Shown in pieces: positions 4,032 to 15,906 of a DNA stretch of 15,906 bases. Source of the stretch: an uncultured Eubacteriales bacterium. Its GTDB lineage: Bacteria; Bacillota; Clostridia; Christensenellales; Christensenellaceae. Both the position numbers and the translations under genes were made by a program. The notes under the pieces are model-generated. The model ran no database searches. It was not told the DNA's origin and saw only the letters and a list, made by a program, of their open reading frames with translations. Location of the stretch: the NCBI GenBank assembly GCA_900545085.1, contig UQXU01000039.1:1-15906 (forward strand). The letters run 5' to 3'. The stretch's first letter is position 1; every line of letters starts with the position of its first letter.

Positions 4032-4856
4032 TTACTGCTTATGTGTTTTCAATTTTGAAATTACTAAACAAATCAAAAACGCCACAATATTCATTATGAC
4101 TACACTCGCGCCTGTGGGAGTGCTGAATACGAATGATACAAAAAGACCCGCAAAGAAGCATATTACAGCAAGCGCCGCGCTCAATATAGTGACAGAACGA
4201 AATTTTTTGCAAAGGCGCATAGCTGTCAGAGATGGAAAGATTATAAGACTTGAGATAAGGAGCGCCCCCATCATCCTCATACCCAGCACGATAGTGATAG
4301 CAGTAAGAAGCGCTATAAGCATATTGTAAACATTTGCTTTTGTACCTGTAGCTTTTGCAAAACTTTCATCAAAAGTAACCGCAAAAATACGGTTGAAAAA
4401 GACTATAAAAAGAACTAGAACAGCGATTGAAAGAACAACGCTTAATTCAACATCAGAATCGCTCATAGCGAGTATGCTGCCGAAGAGATAGTTGTTTATA
4501 TCAGTGTTTACACCGTCAGCCATTGATACGGCAACTACACCTATTGCGAGAGCGCTCGTAGAGATAAGCGCTATTGCCGCATCTCCATGCAGTTTGCTGT
4601 TCTCGCTGATCCGTAAAAGCAAAAACGCCGCCGCTACAACTATAGGAACAGCAATAGCTAAGGGGGCAGCTCCCGTAACCGCGGCTATCGCTAAAGCTCC
4701 GAAACCTACATGAGACAAACCATCACCTATCATGGAGTATCTTTTCAGCACGAGACTTACTCCGAGAAGTGAAGAGCATAACGCGACAAGAACGCCCACG
4801 ACAGCAGCACGCACGAGAAATCCGTATGAAAACATAGTATTTAAAGCTTCAAGCAT
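4032..4856 (-). CDS. znuB: Zinc ABC transporter, membrane permease
   Basis: The product is a 274-residue, very hydrophobic protein of the ABC-3 (ZnuB/MntB/AdcB) family with about 8-9 membrane segments, which forms the channel for zinc import. Typical blocks are LVLKRYSMIGDGLSHVGFGA near residues 36-55, then DINNYLFGSILA and MMGALLISSLIIFPSLTA. A longer frame reaches a TTG at 4874, but the ATG at 4856 has GGAGGTG about 6 bases upstream, so I use 4856. That ATG overlaps the znuC stop by 8 bases, implying translational coupling. It is the last gene of the zur-znuA-znuC-znuB operon. Zinc rather than manganese is inferred from the histidine-rich ZnuA and the Fur-type regulator. Confidence 0.93.
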   Translation of the reverse strand: MLEALNTMFSYGFLVRAAVVGVLVALCSSLLGVSLVLKRYSMIGDGLSHVGFGALAIAAVTGAAPLAIAVPIVVAAAFLLLRISENSKLHGDAAIALISTSALAIGVVAVSMADGVNTDINNYLFGSILAMSDSDVELSVVLSIAVLVLFIVFFNRIFAVTFDESFAKATGTKANVYNMLIALLTAITIVLGMRMMGALLISSLIIFPSLTAMRLCKKFRSVTILSAALAVICFFAGLFVSFVFSTPTGASVVIMNIVAFLICLVISKLKTHKQ

Positions 4857-5556
4857 TTGCTTCACCTCCGACAAGAGCTGCGTAAGCGTCGCTGTTGATA
4901 TACTCTTTGTTTGTGCCGAAGAATATTTGCTTATGCCTTACTTGAAGAACATGAGTGGCATATTTCTCAACTGTAGACATATCGTGGGAAACCATTATTA
5001 TTGTCATACCATTTAAATTAATTTCTGAAATAATATTATAAAGAGCTACAGTCATTCTGGGATCAAGTCCCGCTGTTGGTTCATCGAGCAGAAGCAGCTT
5101 TTTTGCCGCGCATAGCGCTCTAGCCAGAAGAACGCGCTGTTGCTGACCTCCGGAAAGCTCGCGGTAGCACATATTTTGCTGATCTAAAATGTTTAGTTTC
5201 CTCATGTTCTCTTCAGCAAGTTGTTTTTGTTTTTTACCAAAAAAAGGACGCATCCCCAATGATCCGAGACAACCTGAGAGAACTACTTCTCTCACGCTGG
5301 CAGGAAAATCCCGCTGGACGTCAGTTTGCTGAGGCAAATATCCAATTTCTCCGTGCTTTAATTCATCCCCCATTATTATCTCTCCGAATGTCGGAGACTT
5401 TAAGCCAAGTAAGCCCTTAACAAGCGTACTTTTGCCTGTGCCGTTTTCGCCGACAATACAGAGATAGTCGCCGGCATTTACTGTAAAACTTAAATTTTCT
5501 ATGACATCTACGCCATCATATCCCAGCGTAACGTCATTAAATGTAACTAAACTCAT
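4849..5556 (-). CDS. znuC: Zinc ABC transporter, ATP-binding subunit
   Basis: This 235-residue ABC ATPase drives zinc import from the inner face of the membrane. Walker A is GENGTGKST (residues 36-44), the Q-loop is in GYLPQQTDVQ, the ABC signature is LSGGQQQR (134-141), Walker B is LLLLDEP (154-160) and the switch histidine is in SHD (H191). All catalytic elements are intact. It starts at 5556, where the ATG shares one base with the znuA stop (TAATG), and it runs 8 bases into znuB. It works with ZnuA and ZnuB. The metal assignment comes from context. Confidence 0.94.
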   Translation of the reverse strand: MSLVTFNDVTLGYDGVDVIENLSFTVNAGDYLCIVGENGTGKSTLVKGLLGLKSPTFGEIIMGDELKHGEIGYLPQQTDVQRDFPASVREVVLSGCLGSLGMRPFFGKKQKQLAEENMRKLNILDQQNMCYRELSGGQQQRVLLARALCAAKKLLLLDEPTAGLDPRMTVALYNIISEINLNGMTIIMVSHDMSTVEKYATHVLQVRHKQIFFGTNKEYINSDAYAALVGGEANA

Positions 5557-6521
5557 TAATTAAGCGCCTCTCTCAAGGTATTTGCGTTCTCTCTCATCAG
5601 ATCTATATATGTTTTTCCCGCATCAAAATCGTCTTTTGTAACATTGTGGCAAGAATGCAGCAGCAAACTCTTCGTGCCGGTATCTTGGCAAATTGTATCT
5701 GTCAGTTTTTCATTAGAGAGCTCCAAATGCAGCACTGCCGGAATGTGTTCTTGATTGACTTTATCTATCAAAAAAGCAACCGTAGCAGCGCTTGGTTCTG
5801 TTTCGCTCGCACATCCCGGAAAGGCCGCTACTGCTTCAAGATCGTACTCTTCAATAAAATACCTAAATGGCATTCTGTCTCCGAATACAAGTGTTTTTCT
5901 CTCGCCGGTGCTTACAATTTCTTTAAACTCGTTGTCTAGCTCTTCCAGCTGTAAACAATACTCCATGGCATTTTGATAATAAACTTCTGAGTTTTCAGGA
6001 TCTGCATCAGACAATGTTTTTGATATTTGAGTAACTATTTTCTCTGCATTGAGCGGTGATGTCCAAACATGTTCATCGTATTCCTCATCTTCGTCATGTT
6101 CTTCTTCGCTGTGGTTATGATTTCCGGACATGCCTTCTGTAAATTCTTCCTCCAGTGTTTCTACACAGTCCATCATCGCAATTCTCTTTTGACTGCTGTT
6201 ATCTATGCTGTCAAGAATATCAGAAACCCAATTTTCAGATTCGCCGCCATTGTAAATAAATACGTCGCACTCTTCTATGGCTATGATGTTCTGAGGAGTC
6301 GGATCGAAAGAATGGCTTTCCGAGCCCGGCGGAAGCAGCATGATAACTTGTGCATTGTCGCCCGCTGCCGCGCGAGCGAAGTCATACGCGGGGAAATTAG
6401 ATGCGACAACTTTTAGTTTCGTACTTTGTTCTGTTTGCTGAACACGGCTGACGGAACAACCTGTCATTACTATAAAAGCAAACATCAGCATGAACGAGAT
6501 CAATCTTTTTGAATTATTCAT
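5556..6521 (-). CDS. znuA: Zinc-binding lipoprotein of ABC transporter
   Basis: This 321-residue extracellular solute-binding lipoprotein should deliver zinc to ZnuBC. A signal peptide ends in MTGC with the lipidated Cys at residue 22. Cluster A-I metal-binding hallmarks are H70 in the block SESHSFDPTP, and H151 in DEHVW. Between them lies a flexible loop (about 133-151) rich in His, Glu and Asp, typical of zinc chaperone loops. The usual third ligand block (HDAFGYF in many homologues) is replaced by GDRMPFRYF at 214-222, followed by FPGCASETEPS and a HSCHN motif (289-293), so the ligand set differs from the textbook protein. The ATG overlaps the fur-family stop by four bases (ATGA), and AAGGAG lies upstream. 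Confidence 0.92.
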   Translation of the reverse strand: MNNSKRLISFMLMFAFIVMTGCSVSRVQQTEQSTKLKVVASNFPAYDFARAAAGDNAQVIMLLPPGSESHSFDPTPQNIIAIEECDVFIYNGGESENWVSDILDSIDNSSQKRIAMMDCVETLEEEFTEGMSGNHNHSEEEHDEDEEYDEHVWTSPLNAEKIVTQISKTLSDADPENSEVYYQNAMEYCLQLEELDNEFKEIVSTGERKTLVFGDRMPFRYFIEEYDLEAVAAFPGCASETEPSAATVAFLIDKVNQEHIPAVLHLELSNEKLTDTICQDTGTKSLLLHSCHNVTKDDFDAGKTYIDLMRENANTLREALN

Positions 6522-7000
6522 CCCTTAGCTGCTCCTTGGTTTACGCGAGGTGAGCGATATATATGATTACTTGTACGGTGTTTTCGTGCAAGTATAGAGG
6601 ATTTTACTGCGCATTCATTGCATATTCCGTATATAACTGTTTTCATTGAATTCATATCAAAACCATGCTGTACAGAGAGATGATGATGAAGTTGTTTAAG
6701 TTCACAGCAATCGAAATGAATAAATTTATTGCATTTTTCGCATTTAAAGTGAAAATGCGGCTCTTTGTCTGCGCTCATATATTCATAGTAAGACGTTTGA
6801 GTTCCATCCATGCTGAATCTCTGTATAACGCCTTCGGATGTAAGTCTGGACAGCTGTCTGTATATAGTAGCTATACCCACATCGTATCCTTTGTTTTTTA
6901 AATAATGTGCTATATCTGATGCACTCATGTGTGCGCCTGTATTAGTTTTTAGCGTATCAACTATGAGCTGCCGCTGTCTGGTTTTATAAGTCTCTCTCAT
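6518..7000 (-). CDS. zur: Fur-family metal regulator, probably Zur
   Basis: This 160-residue DNA-binding repressor has a winged helix containing GIATIYRQLSRL (residues 42-53). Its regulatory His cluster is HFHF (82-85), HFDCC (95-99) and HHH (105-107). The structural zinc site is CEKC (87-90) plus CNEC (127-130). Its position as first gene of a zinc transport operon points to Zur; PerR or Fur is less likely but cannot be excluded from motifs alone. After CNEC there is a basic tail of about 30 residues, longer than usual. The ATG at 7000 has GAGGTAG upstream and a near-consensus promoter. It overlaps znuA by four bases, so regulator and transporter are co-transcribed and probably autoregulated. 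Confidence 0.9.
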   Translation of the reverse strand: MRETYKTRQRQLIVDTLKTNTGAHMSASDIAHYLKNKGYDVGIATIYRQLSRLTSEGVIQRFSMDGTQTSYYEYMSADKEPHFHFKCEKCNKFIHFDCCELKQLHHHLSVQHGFDMNSMKTVIYGICNECAVKSSILARKHRTSNHIYRSPRVNQGAAKG

Positions 7001-10638: not shown

Positions 10639-11516
10639 ATGGATATTCGTGTACTTAAATACTTTCTTGCTGTTGTGCAAGAGGAGAGCGTTACACGGGC
10701 GGCAGAAGCCATTCATACCACGCAGCCAAATCTCTCCAGGCAATTAAATTTGCTGGAAGAAGAACTGGGCTGCAAACTTTTTGAACGAGGTAGCCGAAAA
10801 ATTACTCTTACAGAAGAAGGGCTGTTCCTGCATAAACGGGCAAAAGAGATTGTAGAGCTCACGGAGCGGACAGAATCTGATTTGAGCCTTCTGAAAGAAG
10901 CTGCCAGCGGTGTCGTCCATATTGGCGGTATCGAAACCCATGTCATGCGTTTTCTCGTCCATACAATCCTGACGCTGAAAGACGTTTATCCGCAATTCAA
11001 TATGACTTTTTCAGCGGGAGCATTGCGGAGATTACGGACTGGCTCAATAAAGGTCTTCTGGACTTCGGCGTGGTCGTAGCACCGGTAGATATGCAGAAAT
11101 ATGACTATATCAAGCTGCCCGTCAATGACCGTTTCGGCGTTGTCATGCGAAAAGACTGCCCGCTTGCCAAACTTCATTCTATCCGACCGGAAGATATTGG
11201 CGATTATCCGGTATGGGTAGCGCACCAGCAGATTGAGGGAAATGTTCTTTCCAGTTGGCTGGGCCGAGACTTGCAAAGCCTGAACATCGTTTCTACGTTT
11301 AATCTCATTACAACACCTGCTATGATGATTGAAGAAGGTTTCGGTATGGCATTTACTTTCGATCATCTTGTAAGTACCGGAGAAAACAGCAGCTTATGTT
11401 TCCGTCCTCTGGAACCCAAAATAGAAGCTGACATTTTTCTGATCTGGAAAAAGTATCAGATGTTCACAAGAGCCGCAAGTATATTTTTAGAGGAAGTCCG
11501 CCGGAAATCCCGCTAA
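10639..11516 (+). pseudogene. LysR-family transcriptional regulator with a one-base frameshift
   Basis: The N-terminal frame (10639-11079) has the LysR winged helix-turn-helix, with VTRAAEAIHTTQPNLSRQL at about residues 18-36 and the linker helix behind it. It continues as good LysR sequence to YPQFNMTF, then runs into unrelated residues. The sequence resumes one frame over as FSGSIAEITDWLNKGLLDFG, read from 11010, and runs to the stop at 11516 with the ligand-binding domain. A single missing T in the T5 run at 11007-11011 explains this; six T would restore one protein of about 292 residues. It could be a true mutation, slippage-prone phase variation or a sequencing error. Targets are unknown; the adjacent SDR or alcohol dehydrogenase genes are likely. 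Confidence 0.85.
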
Positions 11517-11653: not shown

Positions 11654-11683
11654 AAAAGGCCGCAGAATTGTTTTCTGCTGGCC
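11654..11683 (-). terminator. Terminator of the adh-SUMF1-AKR operon
   Basis: On the minus strand GGCC-A-GCAGAA pairs with TTCTGC-GGCC around an AACAA loop, with one bulged A, followed by TTTT. It lies 26 bases past the stop of the aldo/keto reductase gene. Confidence 0.8.
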
Positions 11684-11708: not shown

Positions 11709-12680
11709 TTACCAATCTCCGTATCTTTCATTACGGTTCAAATCTGCAATCTGCGAAAGTTCTTCCTCTGATAACTCAAAATCAAAAACATCATAGTTTT
11801 CCGCAATGTGATCCGGGTTACTCGATCCGGGAATAACAACATATCCGGTCTGCAAATGCCATCTTACCAAAATTTGTGCAGAGGTTCTATTATGGGATTC
11901 TGCTATATTCACAATCGTTTCATCATTGAAAATATCCTGTGTATGCCCTCTTCCGCCAAAGGGATAATAGGATTCCATTACTGTCCCATACTGGCTGACA
12001 TATTCCGGCATCTGCTCGTTTTTATAATATGGGTGGTATTCATTTTGGAGAACCGCAGGCATGATTTCCGCATTTTCTGTCACACGCTCAAAATCTTCCG
12101 GTGTGTAATAGTTAGAAATCCCGATGGAATGAACCTTACCATCATAAACTGCCTGCTGAATTGCAAGGTAAAGTTCGTTTTCTCCGACTCCCGGCTGATG
12201 AACCAGCATCAGGTCAATATAATCAAGCCCCAGCCTTTCATTACAAGCGTCAATGGCATCCTCATAATCCTCAGAAATACCGGGAACAAGCTTGCTTGTA
12301 ACAAAGACTTCTTCCCTTGTAACGATTCCTTCGTCAATGGCTCTCCTGACGCCTTTGCCCACGCCTTCCTCATTTCCGTAATATCTGGCGGTATCAATCA
12401 GCCGGTATCCATCCTGCAGAGCGTGATAAACACTGTTTTCCACAGTTTCATCATCCTGCGTCCAGGTACCAAGCCCAATGATTGGCATTTCATAGCCGCT
12501 GTTTAACATAACCGTTTTGTTTTCAAAATCAAATTCTTCAGCAAGCTGTTTTTCTGGTTCAGATGTGACAATTTCTGAAACCGCAGCGTTTTTATCATCG
12601 AAAGGAGATACCACAGCCTGCCCGCAGGCAGACAGACATATCATGGAAAGAGGCAAAAGAAAAGATAATATTTTTTTCAA
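11709..12680 (-). CDS. Aldo/keto reductase lipoprotein
   Basis: This 323-residue protein is built as a signal peptide, linker and full aldo/keto reductase barrel (about residues 55-323). The signal peptide has KK, a hydrophobic core and lipobox LSAC with Cys at residue 19, so the protein should be lipid-anchored outside the membrane. All four catalytic residues are present: D96, Y101 (ARYYGNEEGVG), K130 (VTSKL) and H161 (LVHQP). In the cofactor-phosphate segment, the common IPKS is IPGSS (283-287) and the usual Arg is H291, suggesting weaker NADPH preference. The start is TTG at 12680, 9 bases after AAGGAG; the only later ATG would destroy the signal peptide. It is the last gene of a three-gene operon, 13 bases after the SUMF1-like gene. 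AKRs normally reduce aldehydes and ketones in the cytoplasm, so export is odd. Confidence 0.88.
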   Translation of the reverse strand: MKKILSFLLPLSMICLSACGQAVVSPFDDKNAAVSEIVTSEPEKQLAEEFDFENKTVMLNSGYEMPIIGLGTWTQDDETVENSVYHALQDGYRLIDTARYYGNEEGVGKGVRRAIDEGIVTREEVFVTSKLVPGISEDYEDAIDACNERLGLDYIDLMLVHQPGVGENELYLAIQQAVYDGKVHSIGISNYYTPEDFERVTENAEIMPAVLQNEYHPYYKNEQMPEYVSQYGTVMESYYPFGGRGHTQDIFNDETIVNIAESHNRTSAQILVRWHLQTGYVVIPGSSNPDHIAENYDVFDFELSEEELSQIADLNRNERYGDW

Positions 12681-12693
12681 GTCCTATCACTCC

Positions 12694-13641
12694 TTACGAA
12701 AGGCCGATTCTAAGACCAATGGTATAATCGGTAGCGGAATAGAAATAGCGGTAAGTACAGGTAAAACGGTAATCATCATTATAGTAAATGCTGCCGCCCC
12801 GCTTAATATAGTTATTGCTCGGCGTTGTATTGCAGGGATCAGTCCGCGTCTCAGTGCTGTAAGGTGCCGCATAGTCAGCTACCCATTCATACACATTACC
12901 GCTCATGTCATAAATTCCCAATTCATTCGGTTTCTTCTGCTTAACCGGATAGACGCGTCTGCCGTCATCACTTGTCCAGCCCACTTCGGACAGGGTATCG
13001 CTGCCGGAATAAATATACCCCTGGCTCTGATTTCCGCCTTTTGCGGCAAATTCCCACTGCGCTTCGGTAAGCATATGGAAATTCTGATCCTCCGGAATAA
13101 TCCCTGCCGCATGAGCTTTCTCATTCAATCTTTCTACAAATTCCTGACATTCCGGAACAACTACGCTGGCAATCGGATATTCCAGATCTTCCTCACTATG
13201 ACTGTCATACATGACTTCGTTCCACAAGGCTCTGGTGACTTCTGTTTCGCCGATGCAGTAAGAGGAAACTGTTACCTGATGCTCCCCGGCCTGGTTGCTT
13301 ACCTGCGTTCCGCTACCCTGTGCCCTTTCGTCATTTCCCATCGTGAAGGTTCCGCCTTCAACATAAATCATTGTGAACTCTACACCATTCAGACTATAAG
13401 TAGCGGTTTCTAAATCACTGGTATTTGTCTCGGCATCCTGTGGTACAGACGAGTCATTCTCCGCTGCCTGCTCCGTATCTGCTTCTGCGGTATCCGATTC
13501 AGGCATTGTCGATTCTTCCACTGTAACATCCGGCTGTGTCTGACTGCTTTCCACATCAGCTTTCGCCTGATTGCCACAGCCTGTAAATGCAAGTGTTAAT
13601 AACATTACAAGGGAGAGAACCCCTATTTTAGATTGTTTCAT
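12694..13641 (-). CDS. SUMF1/formylglycine-generating-enzyme-like lipoprotein
   Basis: This 315-residue exported lipoprotein has a signal peptide ending FTGC (Cys 22). Residues about 23-82 form an acidic Ser/Thr/Glu-rich linker. From about 86 comes the FGE-sulfatase (SUMF1) fold: MIYVEGGTFTMG (91-102), EVTRALWNEVM (134-144), TEAQWEFAAKGG (192-203), GIYDMSGNVYEWVADY (242-257) and a C-terminal RGGSIYYNDDYRFTC...GLRIG. True formylglycine-generating enzymes use a Cys pair in the C-terminal part; here only one Cys (C295) is seen there, so catalysis on sulfatases is doubtful and no sulfatase gene is nearby. It may instead bind a ligand or partner. The ATG at 13641 has AAGGAG upstream. It lies between the alcohol dehydrogenase and AKR genes, 29 and 13 bases away. 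Confidence 0.88.
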   Translation of the reverse strand: MKQSKIGVLSLVMLLTLAFTGCGNQAKADVESSQTQPDVTVEESTMPESDTAEADTEQAAENDSSVPQDAETNTSDLETATYSLNGVEFTMIYVEGGTFTMGNDERAQGSGTQVSNQAGEHQVTVSSYCIGETEVTRALWNEVMYDSHSEEDLEYPIASVVVPECQEFVERLNEKAHAAGIIPEDQNFHMLTEAQWEFAAKGGNQSQGYIYSGSDTLSEVGWTSDDGRRVYPVKQKKPNELGIYDMSGNVYEWVADYAAPYSTETRTDPCNTTPSNNYIKRGGSIYYNDDYRFTCTYRYFYSATDYTIGLRIGLS

Positions 13642-13670
13642 TTCACAACACTCCTTTATCTAATCGTTCT

Positions 13671-14840
13671 TTACAGACACATAGTAAAGATTTTTTCAAT
13701 GTCCTCCTGTTTCAAAGGCTTAAAACCGGGGAGAACGTCTCCGCCGCAAGCCTTCTTAGCCATAAGAGAGAAATAGGATGCGTCAATTCCGATTTCCGAC
13801 AAGTTGGATTTCAACCTCAGCGTTTTATAAAGAAATTCTTCCGTCAGGCAAATACTCTTTTGAGCGACTTCCATTTTGGGAAGCGCCGGGTCAATTCCAA
13901 AGACCTGAACTCCAAACTGATAAAAGCGGTCTGCTGTGTTTTCATCCAGAATATAACGCATCCAGCGCGGCGTTAAGATAGCAAGTCCTAAACCATGCGT
14001 AATGTCATAAATTGCGGACAGCTCATGCTCCATAGGATGGCAGCTCCATTCACAATTTTGCAAAGCACCGGTAAAACCGTTAATCGCCCAGGATGCAGCC
14101 CACATTAAATTCGCTCTGGCTTCATAGTTGTCCGGCTGCTCCAATGCAATGGGGGCATACTTTATAACAGTTTTCATCAAGCTTTCTTTCACACAGTCCA
14201 GCATATACATACTGCCGTCCTGGGGAACAAAATAACTTTCAAAAATATGGGAAAGAATATCGGCGCTCCCGCAGGCAGTCTGATACTTACTAACCGAATA
14301 CGTCAGGGTCGGATCAAGGAATGAAACTTTGGGCTGCATGGGTGCGAAAGAAAATCCCAGCTTATCGTTCGTTTCCGGGTTGCTGATGACGCCGCCCGCA
14401 TCCATTTCAGAGCCGGTAGCCGCCAAAGTCAGAACGGTGACAACCGGAAGGCATTTCTGAACGTCCACCTTTTGCAGAAGAATATCCCATGCGTCTCCGT
14501 CATAATAAGTCGCTGCGCCTACATATTTTGCACAGTCAATAACAGAACCGCCTCCAACAGCCAGCAATACGTCAATGTTCTCTCTTTTGCAGATGTCCGC
14601 CCCTGCGTTTACAGAAGAAACACGAGGATTTGGTTCGATACCGGCCAACTCAAACAACTCCATTCCGGCTTTTTTGATTTCAGCTACAATCTTATCATAG
14701 AGGCCGCTTTTTTTGATGGAACCGCCGCCATAGCACAGCAAAACTTTTTTGCCGTAAGCCGACAGTTCCGTTCCTAAATGTTCAAGCTGATCCGGGCCAA
14801 AATAAACACGAGTGGGAATGTCATAAATAAATGAATACAT
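13671..14840 (-). CDS. Iron-containing alcohol dehydrogenase (BDH/YqhD-like)
   Basis: This 389-residue group III alcohol dehydrogenase is probably a cytoplasmic NAD(P)H-dependent aldehyde reductase. It begins MYSFIYDIPTRVYFGPDQLE, like butanol dehydrogenases. The cofactor motif GGGSVID is at 96-102. Metal ligands are D194 and H198 (GSADILSH), H268 (CHPMEHEL) and H282 (THG), matching the spacing in YqhD. The frame extends upstream to 14933, but that part lies in the promoter and leader. ATG 14840 has AGAAAGG with a 9-base spacer. It is the first gene of the operon with the SUMF1-like and AKR lipoproteins, divergent from a marR gene. The exact substrate is not deducible; short-chain aldehydes are typical. 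Confidence 0.93.
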   Translation of the reverse strand: MYSFIYDIPTRVYFGPDQLEHLGTELSAYGKKVLLCYGGGSIKKSGLYDKIVAEIKKAGMELFELAGIEPNPRVSSVNAGADICKRENIDVLLAVGGGSVIDCAKYVGAATYYDGDAWDILLQKVDVQKCLPVVTVLTLAATGSEMDAGGVISNPETNDKLGFSFAPMQPKVSFLDPTLTYSVSKYQTACGSADILSHIFESYFVPQDGSMYMLDCVKESLMKTVIKYAPIALEQPDNYEARANLMWAASWAINGFTGALQNCEWSCHPMEHELSAIYDITHGLGLAILTPRWMRYILDENTADRFYQFGVQVFGIDPALPKMEVAQKSICLTEEFLYKTLRLKSNLSEIGIDASYFSLMAKKACGGDVLPGFKPLKQEDIEKIFTMCL

Positions 14841-14916: not shown

Positions 14917-14944
14917 ATTATACTCAGAAACACACGAATAACAA
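14917..14944 (-). promoter_or_regulatory. Promoter of the adh-SUMF1-AKR operon
   Basis: On the minus strand: -35 TTGTTA (14944-14939), a 16-base spacer, -10 TATAAT (14922-14917). The leader before the ATG is about 70 bases and contains two inverted repeats. Confidence 0.65.
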
Positions 14945-15166: not shown

Positions 15167-15195
15167 TTGACAATAGAATATAGTTGCGTTATAAT
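15167..15195 (+). promoter_or_regulatory. Perfect-consensus promoter of marR
   Basis: -35 TTGACA (15167-15172), a 17-base spacer, -10 TATAAT (15190-15195). Both hexamers and the spacing are ideal for sigma-A, which implies the gene needs repression; a palindrome lies at the expected start point. Confidence 0.9.
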
Positions 15196-15237: not shown

Positions 15238-15699
15238 ATGGAGTGGAAAAAAGTAAGAGCATATGTTAATCAATACTGTAAATTAAGAGATATTCAATTT
15301 TCAGCATATGAGCTATATGCAAGAAAGTACGGATTAACGGCAAAGGAATTGTTTGTATTGGATATTATTTGGTTTGCTCCTCAAGGCTGTTTACAATCTG
15401 AGATTTGTCAAAGAATGTCCGCTACAAAGCAAACGATAAGCGCCATCATTAAAAAGTTTTGGAAACAAGGGTATTTGTCCATTGCAGAATCTGAAACAGA
15501 TCGCAGGAATAAAGTTATTCGTTTTACACAGGAAGGAAAAGAATACGCCGGTAAAATAATTCTGCCTGCCGCCAATGCCGAAATTAGCGCTATGGCGGAA
15601 CTTAGCGACAACGATATTCATGAGCTTGTTCGCATAACATCGATTTTTTCAAAGCATATGAAACACAAATTTTCTGAAATCAGGGAGGATGAAAAATGA
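15238..15699 (+). CDS. MarR-family transcriptional regulator
   Basis: This 153-residue winged-helix dimeric regulator is of a normal MarR size. The recognition region is QSEICQRMSATKQTISAIIKKFWKQGYL (about residues 53-80, given here by its parts QSEICQRMS and TISAIIKKF). The wing follows with ESETDRRNKVIRFTQEGKEYA; DRR and the TxEG motif are typical. The ribosome site GGGAGG is at 15228-15233. Its stop overlaps the next start in ATGA. The strong promoter with a palindrome at the start point implies autorepression, perhaps relieved by a small ligand or oxidant. It may also control the divergent alcohol dehydrogenase operon. Confidence 0.93.
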   Translation: MEWKKVRAYVNQYCKLRDIQFSAYELYARKYGLTAKELFVLDIIWFAPQGCLQSEICQRMSATKQTISAIIKKFWKQGYLSIAESETDRRNKVIRFTQEGKEYAGKIILPAANAEISAMAELSDNDIHELVRITSIFSKHMKHKFSEIREDEK

Positions 15700-15906
15700 T
15701 TCTGAACACAGGCGGACGAACGGATACAGTCCAATACTACACAGACTGGCTGCTGCGTCGTTTTGCAGAAGGTTTTGTCATGACTCGCAATCCGCTTTTC
15801 CCAAACAAGGTATACCATTACGATTTGACACCGAACAAAATAGATTGCGTTGTATTTTGTTCGAAAAACTACAAACCGATTTTGTCTCGGCTGCACGAAA
15901 TTACAG
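15696..15906 (+). CDS. DUF1848-type protein, N-terminal part (cut by window end)
   Basis: The first 70 residues are visible. They read MILNTGGRTDTVQYYTDWLL, then an EGFVMTRNPLFPNKVYHYDL block and IDCVVFCSKNYKPIL. This matches my memory of the DUF1848 start, which has an SxRTDIPAFY-like opening, RNP and a VDCIVFWTKNP-like block. The family has no settled function; members end in a Cys-rich region that is beyond this window. The ATG overlaps the marR stop by four bases, and GGGAGG lies upstream, so the two are co-translated and the protein is probably under MarR control. Confidence 0.75.
   Translation, partial: MILNTGGRTDTVQYYTDWLLRRFAEGFVMTRNPLFPNKVYHYDLTPNKIDCVVFCSKNYKPILSRLHEIT

Follow-up and report, generated by a model that had tools for sequence, protein, structure and literature searches.

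We analysed a stretch of 15,906 nucleotides from an uncultured Christensenellaceae bacterium (contig UQXU01000039.1, hereafter the window), in which three closely spaced genes encode an iron-containing alcohol dehydrogenase (Fe-ADH), a lipoprotein resembling SUMF1 and the formylglycine-generating enzyme (FGE), and an aldo-keto reductase (AKR) that is itself a predicted lipoprotein. The firmer finding concerns the AKR rather than the triplet: its cofactor loop is, as read from its residues, an NADPH signature changed to an NADH signature, and it belongs to a clade whose members mostly carry signal sequences, lipoboxes or anchors. For the three genes together we tentatively favour, as the most probable of the readings considered here, a carbonyl-handling operon of the YqhD/DkgA type spread over two compartments, with the AKR outside the membrane. 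In such an operon the Fe-ADH would reduce aldehydes reaching the cytoplasm to alcohols, the substrates of the AKR would be aldehydes or ketones (sugars or small electrophiles) met on the membrane's outer face, and the SUMF1-like lipoprotein would hold or present the AKR or its substrate. In relatives of the AKR, exported Flavodoxin_4 proteins, encoded nearby or fused to it, and DUF4405 cytochromes form a possible electron path to the enzyme.

The AKR belongs to its superfamily both by its PF00248 match, which is above the cut-off, and by its Asp/Tyr/Lys/His tetrad, the catalytic residues of AKRs. These residues (Asp96, Tyr101, Lys130 and His161) are invariant in 19/19 rows of an alignment of the window protein with 18 chosen relatives of 58-65% identity (alignment A2), and the Asp/Tyr pattern recurs in 119 of the best 120 database matches, the exception being P0124. 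An AlphaFold model with a mean predicted local distance difference test score (pLDDT) of 83.7 has as its nearest folds the 2,5-diketo-D-gluconate (2,5-DKG) reductases TM1009 (1vp5) and E. coli DkgA (1mzr). The window protein shares barrel and tetrad with these and with the engineered Corynebacterium enzyme 1m9h, but would differ from all of them in being anchored outside the membrane. It also falls short of the DkgA equivalog (NCBIfam NF008598, 206.9 bits against a cut-off of 425). One viral-contig locus held a relative (L065, 57% identity), and the 139 plasmid records were every one below 60%.

In place of the Lys and Arg found in the loop of NADPH-type 2,5-DKG reductases, the window AKR has Gly and His. 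Both recur in 116 of the best 120 database matches, and loop residues P284, G285, S286, N288, P289 and H291 are invariant in A2. Among the solved enzymes aligned, 1m9h has the same Gly and His, whereas the three other distinct proteins have Lys and Arg; the pair introduced by engineering in 1m9h thus occurs naturally here. Titles cited in PMC3565945 name a motif for NADH binding and a change of cofactor specificity in the 1m9h enzyme. The changes K232G and R238H, from 1A80 to 1M9H, stand in a table of specificity-altering mutations that leaves the cofactor unnamed (PMC4580623).

The N-terminus of the AKR, MKKILSFLLPLSMICLSAC, reads by eye as a lipoprotein signal with lipobox LSAC and Cys19. 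To our knowledge, AKRs are regarded as cytosolic enzymes that use NAD(P)H, and a literature search by phrase found no paper on one described as exported, secreted, periplasmic, extracellular or a lipoprotein. We used 66 AKR frames from fetched loci, 53 of them classable by their loop and 13 excluded for missing motifs, to examine how export and loop type are associated. An N-terminal hydrophobic segment was present in 27/32 frames with the Gly/His loop vs 0/21 with a Lys loop, counts that do not represent independent events because the exported AKRs form one clade. The five exceptions were L022 (no segment), L035 (just under the limit) and three short, cytosolic-looking frames (L025, L030 and L051). 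In a tree of 50 rows, the 29 rows of the exported group together with L025 formed that clade with support of 100/100, spanning Bacillota and Synergistota.

Several clade members are fused to further domains: dockerin (L007), RicinB_lectin_2 (L031), Big_2 (L029), Flavodoxin_4 (L020), and SLH with Flavodoxin_4 (L032). Cyclophil_like2 fusions were found in six loci with a local profile, and were confirmed by Pfam in L036 and in the database relatives P0169 and P0206. This branch of the AKRs appears to be specialised for extracellular life. It would also be possible to suppose that the lipobox of the window AKR is misread or inefficient, and that the protein is a cytoplasmic, DkgA-like enzyme. This would place it where NADH is present and would suit a fold that is the same as that of cytosolic DkgA, but the clade carries several kinds of N-terminal hydrophobic segment as well as dockerin, S-layer and lectin fusions, and we consider a cytoplasmic location very improbable.

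Among the relatives, Ruminococcus AKR lipoproteins bear a dockerin in one case (L007:7698-8846) and a cyclophilin-like domain in others (L002-L005 and L033), which hints at cellulosome attachment; P0169 and P0206 have dockerin-like repeats visible by eye and unreported by Pfam. A Selenomonadaceae AKR (L035:7950-8888) begins with a twin-arginine-like signal, MTRREFLTL (motif TRREFL), followed by a lipobox, both seen by eye, which could allow export of a folded, cofactor-loaded protein.

We then considered the genes around AKR relatives, using the 35 loci, out of 54 fetched, whose AKR was at least 49.5% identical to that of the window; both flanks reached near 8 kb in only 13 of the 35, and reading frames were called crudely, by taking the longest. 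Within five genes of the AKR, Flavodoxin_4 was found at 11 loci, DUF4405 at 6 and Cyclophil_like2 (fused or as a neighbour) at 9, with any of the three at 20. From the Pfam density of Flavodoxin_4 (99 occurrences in 70.5 Mb of 22 genomes), 0.44 loci would be expected and 12/22 were found, a comparison to be read with the knowledge that the loci are kin by descent, some being near copies (L014/L015), and that five of these loci supplied the seeds of the profile, with several matches confirmed by Pfam. Frames that look exported made up 16/29 of the Flavodoxin_4 frames overall (four of the 29 being short) and 13/25 of those in the 35 loci, where they were spread over 11 loci. Pfam annotation of 55 neighbours at ten loci, hand-picked from loci already known for Flavodoxin_4 or DUF4405, gave Flavodoxin_4 15 times, further AKRs 9, MatE 5, DUF4440 5, DUF4405 4 and LysR 2. 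Two fusions, an SLH-Flavodoxin_4-AKR protein (L032:6669-8855) and a lipoprotein Flavodoxin_4-AKR (L020:287-1891), are candidate surface enzymes passing electrons from flavin to AKR.

Extracytosolic Flavodoxin_4 proteins and DUF4405 cytochromes are described as taking part in electron transfer in the available text of PMC11334425, in whose main text 'aldo' does not occur. The likeness to that system, as far as this text describes it, lies in AKR relatives fused to or beside exported Flavodoxin_4 and near DUF4405 genes. It differs in that the flavinylation motif, in the pattern searched for, occurred in 0/29 of the relatives' Flavodoxin_4 frames, and in that an exported Flavodoxin_4 or a DUF4405 gene was found in the loci of relatives and neither was found in the window.

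Within the window, the three genes run head to tail in the order Fe-ADH, SUMF1-like and AKR (Table 1), with intergenic gaps of 29 and 13 bases. Sequence and Pfam bear out the preliminary description in this respect, and also in its picture of two lipid-anchored proteins with a cytoplasmic dehydrogenase: by eye, the SUMF1-like N-terminus, MKQSKIGVLSLVMLLTLAFTGC, is a lipoprotein signal with lipobox FTGC and Cys22, followed by a linker and the FGE-like domain, and the Fe-ADH N-terminus has no lipoprotein signal. Co-transcription of the three genes is likely because of their close spacing. The further claim that one promoter and one terminator bracket them is more weakly supported. The candidate promoter matches consensus at 10 of 12 positions, but a sigma-70 scan found 12 sites in the region against 11.0 +/- 3.8 in shuffled sequence, a count at chance level. 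The hairpin (stem 11683-11658) after the AKR stop codon is strong, with -22.5 kcal/mol over a 66-nt stretch (z -4.3, equalled in 0/200 shuffles), but has only four U after its stem and is absent from the terminator-scan output. The same scan placed same-strand sites within the starts of the SUMF1-like (13626-13607) and AKR (12627-12611) genes, and its total of 6 sites against 4.5 +/- 2.1 in shuffles is again at chance level.

Table 1. Positions of the operon genes, their candidate signals and the nearby regulator in the window
Feature	Position	Strand	Details
Iron-containing alcohol dehydrogenase (Fe-ADH), YqhD/butanol-dehydrogenase type	13671..14840	-	389 residues, predicted cytoplasmic; PF00465 and PF25137
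SUMF1/FGE-like lipoprotein (predicted)	12694..13641	-	315 residues; PF03781 97.6 bits, cut-off 23.3
Aldo-keto reductase (AKR) lipoprotein (predicted)	11709..12680	-	323 residues; TTG start; PF00248 147 bits, cut-off 24
AKR cofactor loop PGSSNPDHIAEN	11796..11831	-	Gly and His replace NADPH-binding Lys and Arg
Hairpin with four U 3' of the AKR gene, candidate terminator	11654..11683	-	folding z -4.32
Candidate sigma-70 promoter TTGTTA-16-TATAAT	14917..14944	-	10/12 consensus positions
LysR regulator in two overlapping frames, 10639-11079 and 11070-11516	10639..11516	+	PF00126 in first frame, PF03466 in second

The closest solved relatives of the Fe-ADH are 7w9x, 1vlj, 6l1k and E. coli YqhD (1oj7). 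Its loop YGGGSIKK is close to that of YqhD, and YGGGS(I/V)K is common to 7w9x, 1vlj and YqhD, in the last of which we take it to be associated with NADPH. The loop does not settle the cofactor preference, because 1vlj, which shares it, is labelled NADH-dependent. The protein meets the profile of the Fe-ADH family and lies well below that of the YqhD equivalog (NCBIfam NF011717, 258.5 bits against a cut-off of 645).

A YqhD-type Fe-ADH with a DkgA-like AKR recalls the yqhC-yqhD-dkgA genes of E. coli, whose regulator YqhC we take to be of AraC type. On comparison of the genes alone, the Fe-ADH and AKR of the window lie on one strand with close spacing. The window differs in that a SUMF1-like gene lies between them, in that its AKR is a predicted lipoprotein with a Gly/His loop, and in that the nearby regulator is instead of LysR type and split. 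According to the available text of PMC8262776, the aldehyde reductase YqhD depends on NADPH and shares its regulation with DkgA, and dkgA encodes a methylglyoxal reductase.

The SUMF1-like protein shares the PF03781 family with FGE and GldK/PorK, and structures of both were among its profile matches. Like GldK/PorK it would be a lipoprotein, yet it scored far below the NCBIfam cut-offs for GldK and GldJ. Near relatives of the protein cluster tightly, and their C-terminal stretch is strongly conserved around RGGS(F/I)YYNDDYRFT and TYRYFYS. In FGE, a copper-binding, functional cysteine pair follows the RGGS motif; in alignment A1, the nine residues that start at the GS of RGGS are free of cysteine in all 26 rows. 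Known FGE-type activity is unlikely because this pair is missing, and a structural or binding role, by analogy with GldK/PorK, is probable. Most of the 54 listed relatives start with a lipobox or signal sequence by eye, and surface domains, SLH and dockerin among them, are present in some remoter ones. Sphingobacterium sp. WOUb80 and a metagenome-assembled genome labelled Agriterribacter also encode relatives, and viral contigs held seven loci at no more than 36% identity. A structure model with a mean pLDDT of 51.9 was too poor for use.

Two known roles were rejected for this protein. Sulfatase maturation was ruled out because the cysteine pair is missing and no sulfatase was found among the 18 window frames scanned by Pfam, a set that left out TsaB and unlisted small frames. 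TvpA, a similar protein, is presumably linked to the targets of diversity-generating retroelements; this reading was rejected because the C-terminal region that should vary is strongly conserved.

A single genome sampled from the family to which a Mucilaginibacter genome belongs (G577, L067) has a 46% relative of the SUMF1-like protein after a divergent AraC gene. The order is AraC regulator, SUMF1 relative, a 242-residue protein and a dehydrogenase of the zinc alcohol type. The last has Ahr, an aldehyde reductase dependent on NADPH, as its top NCBIfam match (340 bits, cut-off 470), and the SUMF1 relative lies two genes before it. AKR, Flavodoxin_4 and DUF4405 were all not found in this 19-kb stretch, which is a single case. 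Together with the likeness to yqhD-dkgA, it makes a carbonyl theme plausible for the proposed shared task on both sides of the membrane; a conserved triplet is not supported.

A number of observations weigh against a two-compartment carbonyl operon. The missing electron source for the AKR is its main weakness: a nicotinamide cofactor is not expected outside the membrane, a Sec-type lipoprotein signal would export its protein unfolded, and frames for Flavodoxin_4, Cyclophil_like2 or DUF4405 were not found in the window, whose sequence extends only about 1 kb beyond the operon on its upstream side. The exported AKRs are a single clade, and the Gly/His loop is not specific to export because the three short, apparently cytosolic AKRs carry it. 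In a close relative, an in-frame deletion of about 80 residues (about 70-149) deprives the AKR (P0124) of D96, Y101 and K130, so that this protein is inactive or its sequence faulty. Finally, a SUMF1-like gene or a dehydrogenase of the same type was found at 0/35 AKR loci (13/35 with full flanks), and conservation of the triplet, which the preliminary description had set beforehand as a check on its being a system, was not borne out. Missing partners are partly missing sequence, given the incomplete flanks and the crude calling of frames. L043 and L051 have dehydrogenases at 34-35% identity next to cytosolic AKRs.

Some of these points would suit an exported AKR that is a binding or sensing protein, its barrel holding a ligand outside the cell, with the SUMF1-like protein as a second binding lipoprotein. 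The lack of an expected cofactor supply outside the cell, the altered cofactor loop, the deleted tetrad residues of P0124 and the SUMF1-like protein's missing cysteine pair can all be viewed this way. However, the tetrad is invariant in A2, the loop matches an engineered enzyme of altered specificity rather than random decay, and the Flavodoxin_4 fusions suggest redox work; we regard a binding role as quite unlikely.

To follow the three genes beyond the AKR loci, we looked for contigs of equal size across the match lists of each protein (53 of 120 listed for SUMF1, the best 120 for AKR and for Fe-ADH, each from more than 7000 matches), which suggests a shared contig and not adjacency. SUMF1 and AKR matches shared contig sizes of 13280, 31249 and 53228 bases in three further lineages, with 0.0125 expected above 9 kb, and SUMF1 and Fe-ADH shared none among the matches listed. 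AKR and Fe-ADH shared a 25044-base contig (P0124 and P0241) in a close relative, the sole long-contig case among the matches listed; two more matches on short contigs were at chance level. Genome searches for SUMF1 gave 0/397 (family of the L001 genome, E 1e-30), 0/391 (class of G404, E 1e-40) and 0/11 (E 1e-10), weak partial matches in 2/6, and one 46% match in 301 genomes; that genome recurred alone in 1/100 of a sample and in 1/395 with query P0029. These samples may overlap, their limits were strict, and those of Bacillota had no positive control.

On these sequence comparisons, the AKR/SUMF1 pair is recurrent, as separately is the exported AKR lineage, and the three-gene set looks local. 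It is therefore a distinct possibility, and the chief rival to a two-compartment operon, that the true unit is the exported AKR with the SUMF1 lipoprotein, the Fe-ADH being an ordinary neighbour serving general fermentation or detoxification. Contigs common to AKR and SUMF1 in three other lineages, the lack of such sharing between SUMF1 and Fe-ADH among the matches listed, and the lack of a nearby Fe-ADH at the 35 AKR loci favour this view, as do the Fe-ADH relatives, which among the best 120 of 7998 are 72-96% identical and spread over many contigs. However, the gap of 29 bases on one strand and the 25-kb contig common to Fe-ADH and AKR argue against a mere neighbour, and a comparison of the best 120 would not reveal a dehydrogenase next to SUMF1 if its identity were below 72%. 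Absence of the triplet elsewhere is unproven for the same reason. The terminator-like site inside the start of the SUMF1-like gene, being at chance frequency, decides nothing here.

The exported AKR stays of interest both under the two-compartment operon and under its chief rival. The move of a whole clade to the surface, with a cofactor loop like that of an engineered enzyme, raises the question of what could reduce substrates beyond the membrane of a fermenting cell, and the flavodoxin fusions make this question testable. A broader picture, on the unlikely side, is of a surface carbonyl-reducing system in gut and rumen Bacillota and Synergistota: a clade of exported NADH-type AKRs would act on outside sugars and aldehydes, be reduced via exported flavodoxins and DUF4405 membrane cytochromes, and in some species sit on cellulosomes or S-layers, the window holding a flavodoxin-free version in which a cytoplasmic dehydrogenase and an FGE-like lipoprotein accompany the AKR. 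If true, these bacteria would have carbonyl reduction among their redox activities outside the cytosol.

The split LysR gene, whose frames overlap by 10 bases, is convergent with the operon. It is a candidate regulator that is possibly broken, by frameshift or assembly error, and LysR relatives occur at other AKR loci with at most 47% identity to its C-terminal half (L004 and L033). Elsewhere in the window, a rubrerythrin-type protein (57-362) has a rubredoxin-like domain and only a partial rubrerythrin domain. A Fur-family regulator, a ZnuA-type binding protein, an ABC ATPase and an ABC-3 permease (4032-7000) make up a metal uptake operon, probably for zinc. On the far side of the operon (15238-15906), a divergent MarR gene with a 12/12 sigma-70 promoter match (15167-15195) precedes a DUF1848 gene, which is truncated at the end of the window.

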